Positions 1-43,325 of a DNA stretch of 43,325 nucleotides are shown here, in pieces. Position 1 is the stretch's first letter. The number at the start of each line of letters is the position of its first letter. The position numbers and the translations under genes are program-made. Under the pieces are notes generated by a model, which was not told where the DNA came from, searched no databases, and saw nothing but the letters and a program-made list of their open reading frames with translations. The stretch comes from a virus, in the IMG/VR virus record IMGVR_UViG_3300047494_000040, positions 1 to 43,325 of that record. One strand, given 5' to 3'.

Positions 1-131
1 CCGGCCTTAGCCTCGAGGGACATCGAGCTTACTTCGCCCAGTCCCTTCTTGACGTTGCCGAGGGCACCGACGGTCTTTTCCGTCCCCTTGATGCCTAAGT
101 TTACAAAAAGTTCTCCAATTTGTATTGTAAT
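1..131 (-). CDS. Tape measure protein, N-terminal fragment with variant leader (left allele)
   Basis: This is the 5' end of the tape-measure gene, whose full copy lies at 42020-43084; it runs off the left edge. From base 113 downward it is identical to that copy. Upstream the left allele replaces the GTG-AAT-ATA start with a 74-base longer leader. Read in frame, the leader gives ITIQIGEL, but no ATG, GTG or TTG is in frame before Met37 of the normal protein. ATT (129-131) or ATA (123-125) would have to initiate; the latter aligns with the GTG of the right allele. A Shine-Dalgarno-like AAGGGAGGG lies directly upstream at 135-143. Either a rare start codon is used or one base is wrong. The end at 131 is therefore tentative. 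Confidence 0.6.
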   Translation of the reverse strand, partial: MTIQIGELFVNLGIKGTEKTVGALGNVKKGLGEVSSMSLEAKA

Positions 132-195
132 ACCCTCCCTTAAGCGAATAAGCGAAGCGATGAAACTTCGCCATAAAACTCTTGGTTACTAATCT

Positions 196-749
196 TCACT
201 TGTTCAGCTCCATGTAAGCCGCCTCGTAGTCGCCCTTGAATTTAAGATAGTTAAGGGCTTGCAAGACCACGCGAGCATCTAATCTACTTACTTCCTCGTA
301 AGATCCATATCCGGCGTCTATCAGACGTAGGTGGATAAGAAGTGCGTCCTCCGAAGCCTCTATCCCCGGTCGCTTAGCAGAGTCGATAGGAACTGTCCGT
401 ACTCGGCATAGAGGCTCTTCACGAAAGGGTGGATATTCTCCTTTGCCACCTCCATGCAGACGGTCATGTAGTCGTTCCGCGCCGTTACAGGTTCGAATGT
501 TTTCGCATCTATCCTAAGATCGTTGTAGAGACAGTTCTTTAGGCATTCCCAAAGGCAGTTTTCTATCTTCTTTGATGAGAAGCCTAGACAGAAGAGATCC
601 TTGTACACGCTGGCCATTTCGGTAGAAGAGCTGATCATCACTGACTTTGCCTCCTCTAGAACGGCTTGATAAAGAGACCTGGCGGCCTCAAAAGGAGCCA
701 GGCCTATCTTCAACACTGCACCGCTGGGAAGTTTGACTTCCTTCATCAT
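196..749 (-). CDS. Tail assembly chaperone, predicted -1 frameshift product (lambda gpGT-like)
   Basis: Predicted fusion of about 184 residues. The first 109 codons are those of the 129-aa upstream frame; a -1 shift at CCCTTTC (423-429, codons CCT TTC) then continues in the overlapping frame to TGA at 196-198. The second frame has no convincing start of its own but reads as protein (residues such as EASEDALLIHLRLIDAG and VVLQALNYLKFKG) and stays open back past the slippery site. This layout, two overlapping frames between tube and tape measure, is the conserved tail chaperone arrangement of long-tailed phages (lambda G and GT). The fusion should bind the tape measure and tube during tail assembly in the cytoplasm. 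A second copy of this end lies at 43081-43325. Confidence 0.78.
355..429 (-). promoter_or_regulatory. Programmed -1 ribosomal frameshift signal
   Basis: The minus strand carries CCCTTTC at 429-423 in the phase X XXY YYZ of the 129-aa frame (CA[C CCT TTC]). Six bases downstream begins AGCCTCTAT (416-408), which pairs perfectly with ATAGAGGCT (363-355) to form a 9-bp stem around a 44-base loop. The right arm overlaps the TAG of the unshifted frame. Slippery heptamer, 5-9 base spacer and stable stem are the standard parts of a -1 frameshift signal. All parts recur in the right terminal copy (43240-43314). The shift itself is inferred. Confidence 0.75.
360..749 (-). CDS. Tail assembly chaperone, unshifted product (gpG-like)
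   Basis: A 129-residue protein made by normal termination at TAG (360-362). It starts at ATGATG, the first ATG overlapping the TGA of the tube gene (ATGA), so translation is probably coupled to the tube. It is largely helical with no membrane segment. Its position directly after the tube and before the tape measure, together with the -1 frameshift signal inside it, matches the major tail chaperone of siphoviruses and myoviruses, which coats the tape measure and is absent from the virion. There is no strong sequence motif, so the call rests on context and on the frameshift architecture. Confidence 0.78.
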   Translation of the reverse strand: MMKEVKLPSGAVLKIGLAPFEAARSLYQAVLEEAKSVMISSSTEMASVYKDLFCLGFSSKKIENCLWECLKNCLYNDLRIDAKTFEPVTARNDYMTVCMEVAKENIHPFVKSLYAEYGQFLSTLLSDRG

Positions 750-16165: not shown

Positions 16166-16753
16166 TTACTCTTCAACCATAGAACGGTATTTTGTCAAGA
16201 CTACACAACATGGACATAGCTCTGGTTGTTTCATGTAGTCATCGCAGAAACAGGCACGCTCACACGCCTTAACCATCTCCAGTACGAGAGCGTCAAAGGC
16301 TGGGTCAACTTCTCGATAAACTACAAATTCGTATTCTACCGAACTTACTGAGGGCTGAATTAGTTTTTCTTCTTTTAAAATTCGCTCTCTAAGCTTCATC
16401 CTTCTCGGCTCCTTAACATATGAGCATAGTGGGCCATGAGTACCAACTGGGCAATCACATTGATCTCTAAGCTTCATCCTTCTCGACCTTTCACATAGGC
16501 GTCGTATTTGGCTAAAACTTGTTCCGCAAACTCTGAAACCGTTACAGTTACATGATCGCCCATTAGGAAGTATTCCATTTGAAATATTATTCAACGCCTC
16601 AACCATCTCTTCAACCAAAGCGTCGTACTCGGGTGAGACTTCAACGTAAAATTTAGCTCCTCTAGGTCCATAAGCAAATATATCCTCATCGGGTACAATA
16701 ACTGGTGTTTCAGCGTCGGGATAACCAATCCAAAGACCTCGTTTATTCTTCAT
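16166..16753 (-). CDS. Cys-rich protein built from duplicated modules
   Basis: 195 residues from ATG 16753 (MKNKRGLW), overlapping the upstream stop. It contains two copies of a module: FYVEVSPEYDALVEEMVEAL (about 36-55) and VYREVDPAFDALVLEMVKA (about 144-162), each followed by a cysteine-rich segment (CNCNGFRVCG; CFCDDYMKQPELCPCC). Two internal RRMKLR segments look like former gene starts now read through. A third copy of the module is in the upstream gene. The product seems to be an in-frame fusion after tandem duplication. The Cys clusters could bind metal. Function unknown. Confidence 0.6.
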   Translation of the reverse strand: MKNKRGLWIGYPDAETPVIVPDEDIFAYGPRGAKFYVEVSPEYDALVEEMVEALNNISNGILPNGRSCNCNGFRVCGTSFSQIRRLCERSRRMKLRDQCDCPVGTHGPLCSYVKEPRRMKLRERILKEEKLIQPSVSSVEYEFVVYREVDPAFDALVLEMVKACERACFCDDYMKQPELCPCCVVLTKYRSMVEE

Positions 16754-17057
16754 CCGATTCACTCCCATAGGCGTAGTATTTGGTTAAACAGCGCTGGATT
16801 GTTTCGAGTCTATTTTTATATTGAATAGTTAACCGGTTATCACCGATTAGATCATCTCCACAAAGATCATCGGAATGCCAATTTAGGTAATTCAAATCGT
16901 CGTTAAGCGCCCCAACCAACTCCAGTACTAGAGCGTCAAAGGCTGGGTCGACTTCGCGACAAAGTATTTCGTTTTCAATTCCTGGATAAACTCTAGTGTC
17001 ACCCTCTGCACCCCAGATACCAGTCCGGGCATAAACAGTGAACTCACGCTTTTTCAT
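16743..17057 (-). CDS. Paralogue of the duplicated-module family
   Basis: 104 residues from ATG 17057, inside the end of the previous frame (GGATGAAAAAG context). It has CREVDPAFDALVLELVGAL, nearly identical to the module in the downstream gene; at DNA level 16920-16963 and 16277-16320 differ at only a few positions over 44 bases. The C-terminal part (LETIQRCLTKYYAYGSESDEE) parallels VVLTKYRSMVEE of the neighbour. Recent local duplication is evident; function unknown. Confidence 0.62.
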   Translation of the reverse strand: MKKREFTVYARTGIWGAEGDTRVYPGIENEILCREVDPAFDALVLELVGALNDDLNYLNWHSDDLCGDDLIGDNRLTIQYKNRLETIQRCLTKYYAYGSESDEE

Positions 17058-20329: not shown

Positions 20330-21037
20330 TTAAAATATCCTATTAAGATCGGCGCCCTTGTTGGAGTCACTAACATCTCTCTCATCCGCCAAATCCGGAG
20401 CCCTGTCATAGGAATATTCCGCTATCTCAGTGCCCATCAGGGCGTCCGCAAATTCAAACTTCACAGCGATCGCCATTGCCTTTCTCATCAGCATTATTTT
20501 CGTGAACTTGGTCCACGGCGAATCGGCGTTAAGAGATCCGTCTCGAAGCCTAGCTGGGTACTGTCCTGCCTTTTTTGCTTCTTCGATGGTGTAGGTGAAC
20601 TCCTTCTGTTCCCGGCCCTTGCGTTGAATGACGCAAATTCCAGCGTAAGGCGCCTCGTCGAGATTTTTATTTTCCAGACAAATCTTCTTGTGAGCAGAGT
20701 CAATTGCATAGGTGTGCTTCTCTTTCACTTCCCCGGTCCACTCCGCCAGCGCGCTAGGGAGCTCTCCAAACATTACGAGCTGGTTCTTTATGAACGCAAG
20801 ATTAGGAAGGGCCAGCTGCCACTTCTTTCCTACCAGTGCGTGTGCCAAGTTGTACGCGGCTAACCTTTTTTGTGGCGTGTCGAACCGCGCGGGAAAGCCT
20901 CCACCTTCGCCGATGTGTTTGATCATCGCGCCGAGCTCAACGGCGTTCACCGGGGCGAGGTCCCCCTTCACGAGCCCGATGGGTTGAGGGATGACTGGCT
21001 TAACTTCTTCCTTTGGCGTCTGGGCCTCGGTTTCCAT
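20330..21037 (-). CDS. RecT-like single-strand annealing protein
   Basis: 235 residues from ATG 21037. RecT-family features include an N-terminal LAYNLAHALVGKKWQ-type segment (here LAAYNLAHALV), QLVMFGELPSAL, EEAKKAGQYPAR, and the conserved C-terminal SPWTKFTKIMLMRKAMAIAV. RecT proteins coat and anneal single-stranded DNA during recombination. It follows the RecE-like nuclease by 11 bases, the usual nuclease-annealase pairing. Its length is at the short end of the family. Confidence 0.82.
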   Translation of the reverse strand: METEAQTPKEEVKPVIPQPIGLVKGDLAPVNAVELGAMIKHIGEGGGFPARFDTPQKRLAAYNLAHALVGKKWQLALPNLAFIKNQLVMFGELPSALAEWTGEVKEKHTYAIDSAHKKICLENKNLDEAPYAGICVIQRKGREQKEFTYTIEEAKKAGQYPARLRDGSLNADSPWTKFTKIMLMRKAMAIAVKFEFADALMGTEIAEYSYDRAPDLADERDVSDSNKGADLNRIF

Positions 21038-21048
21038 ACTTCTACTCC

Positions 21049-22002
21049 TTATGGTTGTTCGTCAAATTCATACATGGGCAAGTCCTTCAGGTGGCCCCAC
21101 TTCGGTATTCCTATCTGCTCCGCAATACCGGCCTGATAGCCAGGCCACTGATTTTTTTCTAAACATGTCTTAAGCAACGCCATCCCGTGTTCGATGAACG
21201 CCTTCGCGGTTTCGATGGTGTCTCGGTCGAGCGCATAGAATGCGCAGCAGTAAGGATCGTCTTTCTCTACCGCGAGAAGTGCGTAGATGTCGGGCTCCGT
21301 TCCTGTGATTGCCTCGATACCCATCCCGTAAAACACAAGGCTCACGTGGTACATGAAGTTGTCGATGGACCTTGAGAACTTGTCGGGCGAAGCGTCCTCG
21401 GTGGTCTTAAAGTCGATCAGCACCTTCTTTTCGAGGTGGAGAATGTCCGGACGGATGCGGCAACGGATGCCGGTGGCCTTGTGCCTGAAGTACCCGCTAA
21501 TCTCCGTCTGAGCACCCACTAGCGACGCCTTCGCCTTCTCGTGGTTCAAAATCGATGCGATGCTACCTTGGATACCCTTGTAGTCCTCCGGTGTCACTAC
21601 GAGGGCACCAGGCTTCAGGTTTGCGTACCAGAGCTTCTTCTGGTCCTTCGCGTCCTTTGACTGCGTGCTGAGCCGTCCATCCTTCGTAAAACCTTCAAAC
21701 ACCGGCTCTAAAACGAAGGTGCTCTTAAACTTCTCAGGCTCGAGCAAAGCCATGTGGCAAAGAGAGCCGTAACGAAAATGGTCCTGCTTTTTATCGACCG
21801 AGCTCCCCTGTATCCACTCGGCCTTAAAGTGCGCAGGGGTCTTGCGCAGGATGGTTTTCAGACCTGAGGACGACAGTGCGCCGCGGTCCATGTGGTACTG
21901 CTCGTTTGTCAATCCTGGATGCCAGTGAGCCGCGAACTGCGGAGACACTACTTCCGGCAACCTGTTTATCGGCATCTGCTGTATTAATGGGTCATGTTCC
22001 AT
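21049..22002 (-). CDS. RecE-like PD-(D/E)xK exonuclease (DUF3799-like)
   Basis: 317 residues from ATG 22002. The start LTNEQYHMDRGALSSSGLKT and RYGSLCHMALLEPEKF (His83) are typical of RecE C-terminal nuclease domains. Glu167 in TEISGYF, Asp186 in RIRPDILH and Asp197-Phe-Lys199 in VLIDFKTT form the PD-(D/E)xK core. It would resect double-stranded ends 5' to 3' and hand the strand to the RecT-like protein. A promoter-like sequence lies just upstream. Confidence 0.85.
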   Translation of the reverse strand: MEHDPLIQQMPINRLPEVVSPQFAAHWHPGLTNEQYHMDRGALSSSGLKTILRKTPAHFKAEWIQGSSVDKKQDHFRYGSLCHMALLEPEKFKSTFVLEPVFEGFTKDGRLSTQSKDAKDQKKLWYANLKPGALVVTPEDYKGIQGSIASILNHEKAKASLVGAQTEISGYFRHKATGIRCRIRPDILHLEKKVLIDFKTTEDASPDKFSRSIDNFMYHVSLVFYGMGIEAITGTEPDIYALLAVEKDDPYCCAFYALDRDTIETAKAFIEHGMALLKTCLEKNQWPGYQAGIAEQIGIPKWGHLKDLPMYEFDEQP

Positions 22003-24405: not shown

Positions 24406-24969
24406 TTACCCACCAAGGTCCCGCTCCTTTATCATTCGATGACAACACGCACAGAAGTATAGAAATGGGTTCTTTACATAACCTTCTAAGAATGATTGAG
24501 AGACTGAAGTGGCTCTATCCCTAACGACTTGAATACCTAATTGTGTAATAAAGTAGGTCACAGACTTCATCCATGTTTTCGGGATATCTTTCTCCGGATA
24601 AGCGAGTGAGTTTATTATGGGTTCGATGGCAAAAATGGCGGATTTTCTTCGACCCTCTTCTTTGTCTTTCTGTAATCTAAAATACATTTGGATTTGAGCT
24701 TTGTGTTCCTTTAATAAGGAAATCTCTTTTTTAATATTTATATGTTTTATTGATTTTAGACTTAGAAGATTCTTCGACTTTCCACGGTTACAATCGAAAC
24801 AGGCTGTAACTAGATTTACAAAGTCATTATTCCCGCCCTTAGAGACTGGAATAATATGGTCAATTTCTAATATTAGATCCGGACTCACTGAACGTCCACA
24901 GTATTTGCAGATAAAATCATCTCTCTTAAAGATCTCAAACCTGAGTTTCTTAGAAATACTCTTACGCAA
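24406..24969 (-). CDS. HNH endonuclease-domain protein
   Basis: 187 residues, apparent start TTG 24969 (ribosome site GGGGGAT upstream). Residues 11-65: FEIFKRDDFICKYCGR (Cys21, Cys24), LEIDHIIPVSKGG (Asp37-His38), NNDFVNLVTACFDCNRGKSK (Asn48/Asn51, Cys57, Cys60). This is a complete HNH core with structural zinc cysteines. The C-terminal 120 residues are helical, with a late Cys pair FCACC. Fused C-terminal regions like this occur in phage replication-module HNH proteins. It may be a replication/recombination nuclease or a homing nuclease. Confidence 0.8.
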   Translation of the reverse strand: MRKSISKKLRFEIFKRDDFICKYCGRSVSPDLILEIDHIIPVSKGGNNDFVNLVTACFDCNRGKSKNLLSLKSIKHINIKKEISLLKEHKAQIQMYFRLQKDKEEGRRKSAIFAIEPIINSLAYPEKDIPKTWMKSVTYFITQLGIQVVRDRATSVSQSFLEGYVKNPFLYFCACCHRMIKERDLGG

Positions 24970-42019: not shown

Positions 42020-43084
42020 TTATGATCCAGCCCTCTGCGCCGACCGCTGTCGGTATGCTTGGTTGATGGCCGACTTGTGCAGATCCTTTACGGCCTTGGT
42101 GTCTTTCGCATCGCCGTGATGGGTAATGTTCTGATTTATTGTCGATGGCCCCGACTGACCTGTGATCTTGCTTCCGATCCAATTGCTAAGCATCGATACG
42201 GGGTCGACCTTCAGGTTTCCTTTTTTGTCTGTCGCGCCTCCTGTGATGCCGGAAAGCTTGTCTACACCGGAGCTGATCCCTGAGAAGATCATTCCCCAAC
42301 CTTCGAATATTTTTCCGATCACCGAAAACAACTGAAGCTTTTCTGACAGCTTCTCAAATGCCTCGATGACTTTAAAAACGGCGTCTGCCACCTTTGATAT
42401 GTCATTCACTAAACCTTGCCCGTGAGCGGCATTAAAGTGTCCCATCGCCATCTCTATCTTGTTTGAAAGGTTCGACCATGCGACGTTACTCTTATCCAAA
42501 GAGCTAATTTCACCTTGAGAGTATGTGGGAGCCTTACTGATAGTTGTGGGGTTAAACGCGTTCCTTCGCATCGCCGCGATGGTACCCTCAGACAGACCAA
42601 ATGACTTTAAAACATTGTTTCCCACATCCTGTGGCAATGCCTTGGCCGCCTTCTGCAACTGTTCCATCACGTAGAAAGTATCTCGAGCCTTCTTCGGATC
42701 GAAGCCAACTGTCTTAGCTATTATGCCTAAGCCTTCGGGCGCGCCCTTGCCCAGCATCATGTTGGTCATTGATGCCTGTACGCCCTTGAGAGAGCCGGTG
42801 AACTCCTCTCCCGAGACACCGGCCTGCCGTGCGGCGTACTGCCACTGTTGCAATGTCTTGCTTGATAAGCCCGTGAGAGCGGCGAAGTTGGTGAGGCCTG
42901 TGCCTGCTGCACCGGAGGCGGACATCATCCGCTCCATCCCGTACATCACGGCTAGTATCCCGGCCTTAGCCTCGAGGGACATCGAGCTTACTTCGCCCAG
43001 TCCCTTCTTGACGTTGCCGAGGGCACCGACGGTCTTTTCCGTCCCCTTGATGCCTAAGTTTACAAAAAGTTCGCCTATATTCAC
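42020..43084 (-). CDS. Tape measure protein
   Basis: 354 residues from GTG 43084, which overlaps the chaperone TGA (GTGA), with GGAG eight bases upstream. MNIGELFVNLGIKGTEKTVG, then FAALTGLSSKTLQQWQYAAR are typical tape-measure N-terminal elements. The middle is helical, with a hydrophobic stretch (IGKIFEGWGMIFSGISSGVD), and the C-terminus is basic. Tape measures set tail length at about 0.15 nm per residue, so 354 residues predict a short tail of roughly 50 nm. A variant 5' end of the same gene is at 1-131. Confidence 0.85.
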   Translation of the reverse strand: MNIGELFVNLGIKGTEKTVGALGNVKKGLGEVSSMSLEAKAGILAVMYGMERMMSASGAAGTGLTNFAALTGLSSKTLQQWQYAARQAGVSGEEFTGSLKGVQASMTNMMLGKGAPEGLGIIAKTVGFDPKKARDTFYVMEQLQKAAKALPQDVGNNVLKSFGLSEGTIAAMRRNAFNPTTISKAPTYSQGEISSLDKSNVAWSNLSNKIEMAMGHFNAAHGQGLVNDISKVADAVFKVIEAFEKLSEKLQLFSVIGKIFEGWGMIFSGISSGVDKLSGITGGATDKKGNLKVDPVSMLSNWIGSKITGQSGPSTINQNITHHGDAKDTKAVKDLHKSAINQAYRQRSAQRAGS

Positions 43085-43325
43085 TTGTTCAGCTCCATGT
43101 AAGCCGCCTCGTAGTCGCCCTTGAATTTAAGATAGTTAAGGGCTTGCAAGACCACGCGAGCATCTAATCTACTTACTTCCTCGTAAGATCCATATCCAGC
43201 GTCTATCAGACGTAGGTGGATAAGAAGTGCGTCCTCCGAAGCCTCTATCCCCGGTCGCTTAGCAGAGTCGATAGGAACTGTCCGTACTCGGCATAGAGGC
43301 TCTTCACGAAAGGGTGGATATTCTC
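42960..43325. repeat. Right copy of the terminal redundancy
   Basis: Repeats 1-440 with a 74-base shorter leader and one substitution. It contains the start of the tape measure, the complete second frame of the tail chaperone and the whole frameshift signal, and stops just upstream of it. Confidence 0.93.
43081..43325 (-). CDS. Tail chaperone, second copy, 5' truncated by the window edge
   Basis: Equivalent to 196-440. It carries the shifted frame to TGA 43081-43083 and the end of the unshifted frame at TAG 43245-43247, with slippery heptamer 43308-43314 and stem arms 43293-43301 and 43240-43248. In this allele the TGA overlaps the tape-measure GTG directly. It is cut by the end of the window, not broken. 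Confidence 0.78.
   Translation of the reverse strand, partial: EYPPFREEPLCRVRTVPIDSAKRPGIEASEDALLIHLRLIDAGYGSYEEVSRLDARVVLQALNYLKFKGDYEAAYMELNK

Follow-up and report, generated by a model that had tools for sequence, protein, structure and literature searches.

The window, a viral record analysed over its full length of 43,325 bases, very probably represents the complete circular (or circularly permuted) genome of a 42,885-bp myophage that carries a compact tape-measure leader (leader B), together with a 440-bp tip from a near-identical co-occurring strain that carries a longer leader (leader A) acquired by recombinational import. The best reading assigns one leader to each strain rather than both leaders to one molecule, and the leader A strain was presumably present at minority abundance. 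The coordinates of the features discussed below are summarized in Table 1.

Table 1. Features of the tape-measure leader region and related loci. Positions refer to the window unless a locus is named.
Feature	Position	Strand	Basis or match
Assembly tip, probable second-strain path with allele A, joined to the main circle through the 127-mer 314-440	1-440	-	127-mer shared, 128-mer not
Allele A block, 81 nt: spacer and divergent tape-measure codons 1-4	114-194	-	exact-run comparison of ends
ATA, candidate tape-measure start in allele A, aligned with the TTG start of L018	123-125	-	inference from alignment
AAGGGAGGG, Shine-Dalgarno-like site of allele A, directly at the small-ORF stop (TAA)	133-141	-	sequence
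Small ORF MKISNQEFYGEVSSLRLFA of allele A, 19 codons, GTG...TAA, GTG overlapping the chaperone TGA	140-199	-	read from sequence
33-nt core TTAGTAACCAAGAGTTTTATGGCGAAGTTTCAT, 30/33 common to L016, L018 and L021	160-192	-	local alignment
Tail assembly chaperone T-frame extension (-1 frame), ending MELNK-TGA; second copy of the overlap at 43081-43323	196-438	-	PHROG 16793
Tail assembly chaperone G-frame ORF, 129 aa	360-749	-	ORF; gene order as in annotated phages
Probable -1 frameshift heptamer C CCT TTC for G/GT	423-429	-	codon comparison with relatives
RecT-like gene	20330-21037	-	family match, below Pfam cut-off
Exonuclease VIII/RecE-like gene	21049-22002	-	family match
Tape-measure protein of 354 aa; its GTG start overlaps the chaperone TGA (GTGA)	42020-43084	-	PHROG 2276, E 1.8e-15
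Corresponding 7 nt of allele B	43073-43079	-	exact-run comparison of ends
127-nt exact repeat of 314-440, assembler vertex	43199-43325	.	exact match of contig end
69-aa zinc-finger-like ORF, coupled to the chaperone before it and to the tape measure after it	L137 1680-1889		weak endonuclease VII/HNH/Lar-like matches

Terminal Overlap and the Replaced Block

The two ends of the record overlap, positions 1-440 against 42960-43325, and share three exact runs: 1-113 with 42960-43072, 195-312 with 43080-43197, and 314-440 with 43199-43325. A single SNP (G/A at 313/43198) separates the terminal copies outside one replaced block, which measures 81 nt in allele A and 7 nt in allele B, a net difference of 74 nt. 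The block starts 1 nt past the chaperone stop and ends with tape-measure codon 4, so that the distance from the stop to codon 5 (GAA) is 82 bases in A and 8 in B. The preliminary description had placed an 82-versus-8-base difference exactly between stop and start in otherwise near-identical copies; the lengths, the overlap and the single block were all recovered (with the one SNP besides), but the block also takes in the first four codons of the tape-measure gene. These read ATA CAA ATT GGA in A and GTG AAT ATA GGC in B, and the genes are identical from codon 5 on. Some of the differences (ATT/ATA and GGA/GGC) are synonymous, which fits the import of a block and does not fit a pure insertion.

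Assembly Junction

The contig's final 127 bases recur exactly once in the record, at 314-440, and no 128-mer is shared. The usual largest k of metaSPAdes is 127, which makes metaSPAdes the probable assembler of the record. The ends of metaSPAdes contigs share sequence of the maximum k (maxK), with k lists that extend to 127 (COBRA paper, PMC10914622). In a de Bruijn graph at k = 127, the tip and the end of the genome would both enter the 127-nt vertex, from which one edge exits. At the left end the copies have a run of 113 nt in common, less than a join at this k requires, and the tip would therefore be a dead end.

As a control set, we read the termini of eight records that are related or of similar size. 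Exact 127-nt terminal repeats are present in two of them, the relatives G007 and G011. Another two, G006 (loci L092/L093) and G009 (loci L096/L097), have near-identical terminal overlaps of 130 and 259 nt that are interrupted by SNPs; the first run in common is 126 nt in G006 and 109 nt in G009, below 127 as in the window. By their sequence, G006 and G009 look like closed genomes with strain-mixed ends; such ends are thus not rare in these records. By a rough estimate, contig ends falling at random past the last SNP, in an overlap of a few hundred bases, would give exactly 127 in well under 1% of cases. The exact terminal run, taken with the record ends of the relatives, indicates that the closed genome measures 42,885 bp and has leader B, and that leader A belongs to another strain of the same species. 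The situation resembles the maxK overlaps and strain-variant breaks of metaSPAdes contigs (COBRA, PMC10914622) in the exact 127-nt shared contig end and in the strain variation at the join. It differs in that the path of the second strain has been retained as a 440-bp prefix, which makes both alleles visible in one record.

Chaperone and Tape-Measure Cassette

Sheath, Dit-like, hub and wedge proteins are encoded by the phage, which identifies it as contractile-tailed. Its tail assembly chaperone has the organization of a G/GT cassette, with an overlapping -1 frame, a conserved slippery heptamer and the tape-measure gene downstream. CCT TTY codons occur in the chaperone overlap of the window and of all nine matched relatives, and C CCT TTC is the probable frameshift site. 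The annotated G/GT cassette of Burkholderia phage Magia is alike in that the end of the frameshift extension overlaps the tape-measure start, whereas allele A interposes a small ORF and a spacer and lacks a standard tape-measure start codon. The nearest annotated tape-measure relative is that of Bdellovibrio phage phi1422 (30% identity), where the local gene order is the same; it differs in having no spacer, and its tape measure starts 2 nt after the preceding gene. We also note, elsewhere in the window (16265-16966), three diverged direct repeats of 59 nt, 63-86% alike and ~320 nt apart, suggesting tandem gene duplication.

Small ORF and Candidate Tape-Measure Start in Leader A

The preliminary description had one allele coupled by GTGA and the other bearing a spacer with its own AAGGGAGGG. 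Coupling of the tape measure by GTGA holds for allele B; the same GTGA is present in A, where it opens the 19-codon ORF and not the tape measure. AAGGGAGGG is indeed present in the A spacer, but the tape-measure frame that follows contains no ATG, GTG or TTG between the upstream stop in the spacer and Met35. The ATA at 123-125 lies 7 nt past the purine run and the ATT at 129-131 lies 1 nt past it; judged by spacing and alignment, the tape measure of allele A most likely starts at the ATA, with the ATT as the alternative. In the relative L027 (position 2501), the tape measure seems to begin at an ATT that overlaps the chaperone TAA, after GGGGTGG.

In the proposed scheme, the chaperone stop in A would pass ribosomes to the 19-codon ORF and thereby keep the operon coupled. 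After termination at the TAA, which lies at AAGGGAGGG, ribosomes would start anew on the tape measure from ATA or ATT, each a weak codon other than AUG. Reinitiation at the ATA is the putative start step, and reinitiation at a weak codon might lower or buffer the dosage of the tape measure. A further proposal, which we regard as rather unlikely, gives the spacer core a function of its own: as an element or mini-gene carried by recombination from one of these phages to another, it would reduce or time the synthesis of the tape measure by forcing non-AUG reinitiation.

Distribution and Conservation of the Spacer Core

A search of related genomes for the spacer, as suggested in the preliminary description, recovered the core at the same junction in L016, L018 and L021, and a scan of viral contigs returned these three as the sole matches beyond the window. 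They come from three metagenomes and are 99.9-100% identical to one another. The local alignment with allele A has 35 of 39 positions identical and a score of 53, whereas 5000 shuffles reached at most 31. Identity between the two lineages is no more than ~67% in the neighbouring genes; against this background 35/39 is high yet not unique, since windows of the sheath gene reach 37/40 and the chaperone frame overlap 35/40. This homology with the junction spacer of L016, L018 and L021 identifies the spacer of leader A as real phage DNA. The absence of core matches (0) among 85k bacterial and archaeal genomes indicates that it is not a host repeat. An exact-DNA scan of viral contigs for the A spacer likewise gave no match, in a collection from which records very near the window may be absent.

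The inserts of L016, L018 and L021 are similar to A in that a small ORF is coupled at both ends, to the chaperone and to the tape measure. The ORF has 39 aa in these records and 19 codons in A, and the core of the shorter is homologous to the longer. The rest of the A spacer is unlike the spacer of L016, L018 and L021, the only known spacer-bearing lineage. As a further point of difference from A, L018 (~2463-2500; also L016 and L021) carries in its spacer an apparent decayed second tape-measure start, upstream of the TTG that is used. Its best match is L017 (0 of 2000 shuffles), and this decayed start suggests that the spacer and the 5' end of the tape measure can travel as a unit.

Neither the L018 spacer nor its 39-aa ORF matched anything among annotated phages, and Rfam gave no match at the leader. 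The RNA of allele A folds into a hairpin with the stem GCGAAG/CUUCGC (z = -1.8), and that of L018 folds differently (z = -1.4); a conserved RNA structure at the leader is not claimed. Purifying selection on the mini-ORF peptide is likewise not supported, as the few differences in the core all alter amino acids.

Probable Direction of Change and Route of Import

Among ~40 relatives, nearly all have at this junction a GTGA/ATGA stop/start overlap or a gap of at most ~18 nt; besides L016, L018 and L021, L137 is the sole exception. Across the sequences compared here, the B arrangement is the family norm. The closest relatives, L004 and L015 (90% tape-measure identity), have the B form, and the tape-measure tree pairs the window with L015, with support, and separates both from L016, L018 and L021. 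This makes it probable that in this lineage B came first and A was imported later, and the tree suggests that A is a second, derived occurrence of the spacer.

Leader A is most likely a recent recombinational import. As in mosaic genomes, the block has its homologue at this locus in another lineage, and we infer recombination as the route. In such an event, the stretch from the chaperone T-frame stop to tape-measure codon 5 would be replaced by the homologous insert-bearing DNA of a relative. The RecE-like and RecT-like genes of the phage are plausible agents of short-homology exchange. The scans found no donor with near-identical flanks, although records very near the window may be absent from them.

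Weighing of Alternative Explanations

The 127-nt junction signature, together with the homology of the spacer to the same junction of another lineage, bears out two earlier suggestions, namely that the block was replaced and did not arise by a slip, and that mixed strains or recombination are involved. It had also been considered that the second leader might be explained by the contig end. The manner in which the contig terminated does make the leader visible, but assembly noise does not account for its sequence. In one alternative, leader A would be a library or assembly chimera, formed as a PCR product or mis-joined read between a spacer-bearing relative and the B strain, and no phage would carry it. 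A is indeed restricted to the contig tip and is contained in no other record, and the sequence would be no different if a rare PCR product had fused the B strain to a phage that bears a spacer. Such a chimera is nevertheless unlikely: the flanks are B-like on both sides with a single SNP, so that two crossovers within 81 nt would be required; a path at k = 127 demands reads that span the block together with its flank; and, outside the core, the A spacer is unlike that of the one lineage known to bear a spacer. Ends that overlap by 366-440 nt would also be expected if the genome were truly linear and had imperfect long terminal repeats, but this is hardly credible given the exact 127-nt end run, the same as the repeats in related records, and an overlap that falls within structural genes.

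The suggestion of a switch in tape-measure expression is not supported. Two leaders with distinct initiation signals in near-identical backgrounds are what a programmed or phase-variable switch, in which the leaders alternate and tune expression, would produce; with one locus per genome, one leader type in each relative, no second (silent) copy of the spacer elsewhere in the 43,325-base record and no inverted repeats of at least 30 nt in it, a switch is very improbable. The remaining proposal concerns the origin of the spacer only and is compatible with import into a co-occurring strain: the spacer would be the scar of a small homing-endonuclease-type element, with the flanking codons co-converted. 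The insert of L137 lies exactly at the junction and, like that of A, consists of a small ORF coupled at both ends to the chaperone and the tape measure (ATGA/GTGA); its product resembles the zinc-finger part of endonuclease VII/HNH proteins. The altered codons 1-4 beside the A insert fit co-conversion, and the window phage encodes an HNH protein (24406-24969). The L137 matches are weak, however (best E 2.3e-5, to a Lar-like family), its 69-aa ORF has no evident sequence in common with the A spacer, and a nuclease domain is absent from both A (19 codons) and L018 (39 aa, no family match), which makes a homing scar doubtful.

Implications

Strain mosaicism at phage gene junctions is ordinary, and the present finding is mostly ordinary strain microdiversity exposed at an assembly join. 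The unusual detail is a rare junction insert that takes away the standard tape-measure start codon. A contig end can thus reveal strain-level alleles that a closed consensus hides, here beside the likely true genome, which has 42,885 bp and leader B. If the spacer-core mini-gene did act on synthesis, it would provide a natural strain-level dosage variant of a tail-length gene. If allele A is confirmed, the two leaders would form a natural pair for testing the dependence of tape-measure translation on coupling to the chaperone stop.
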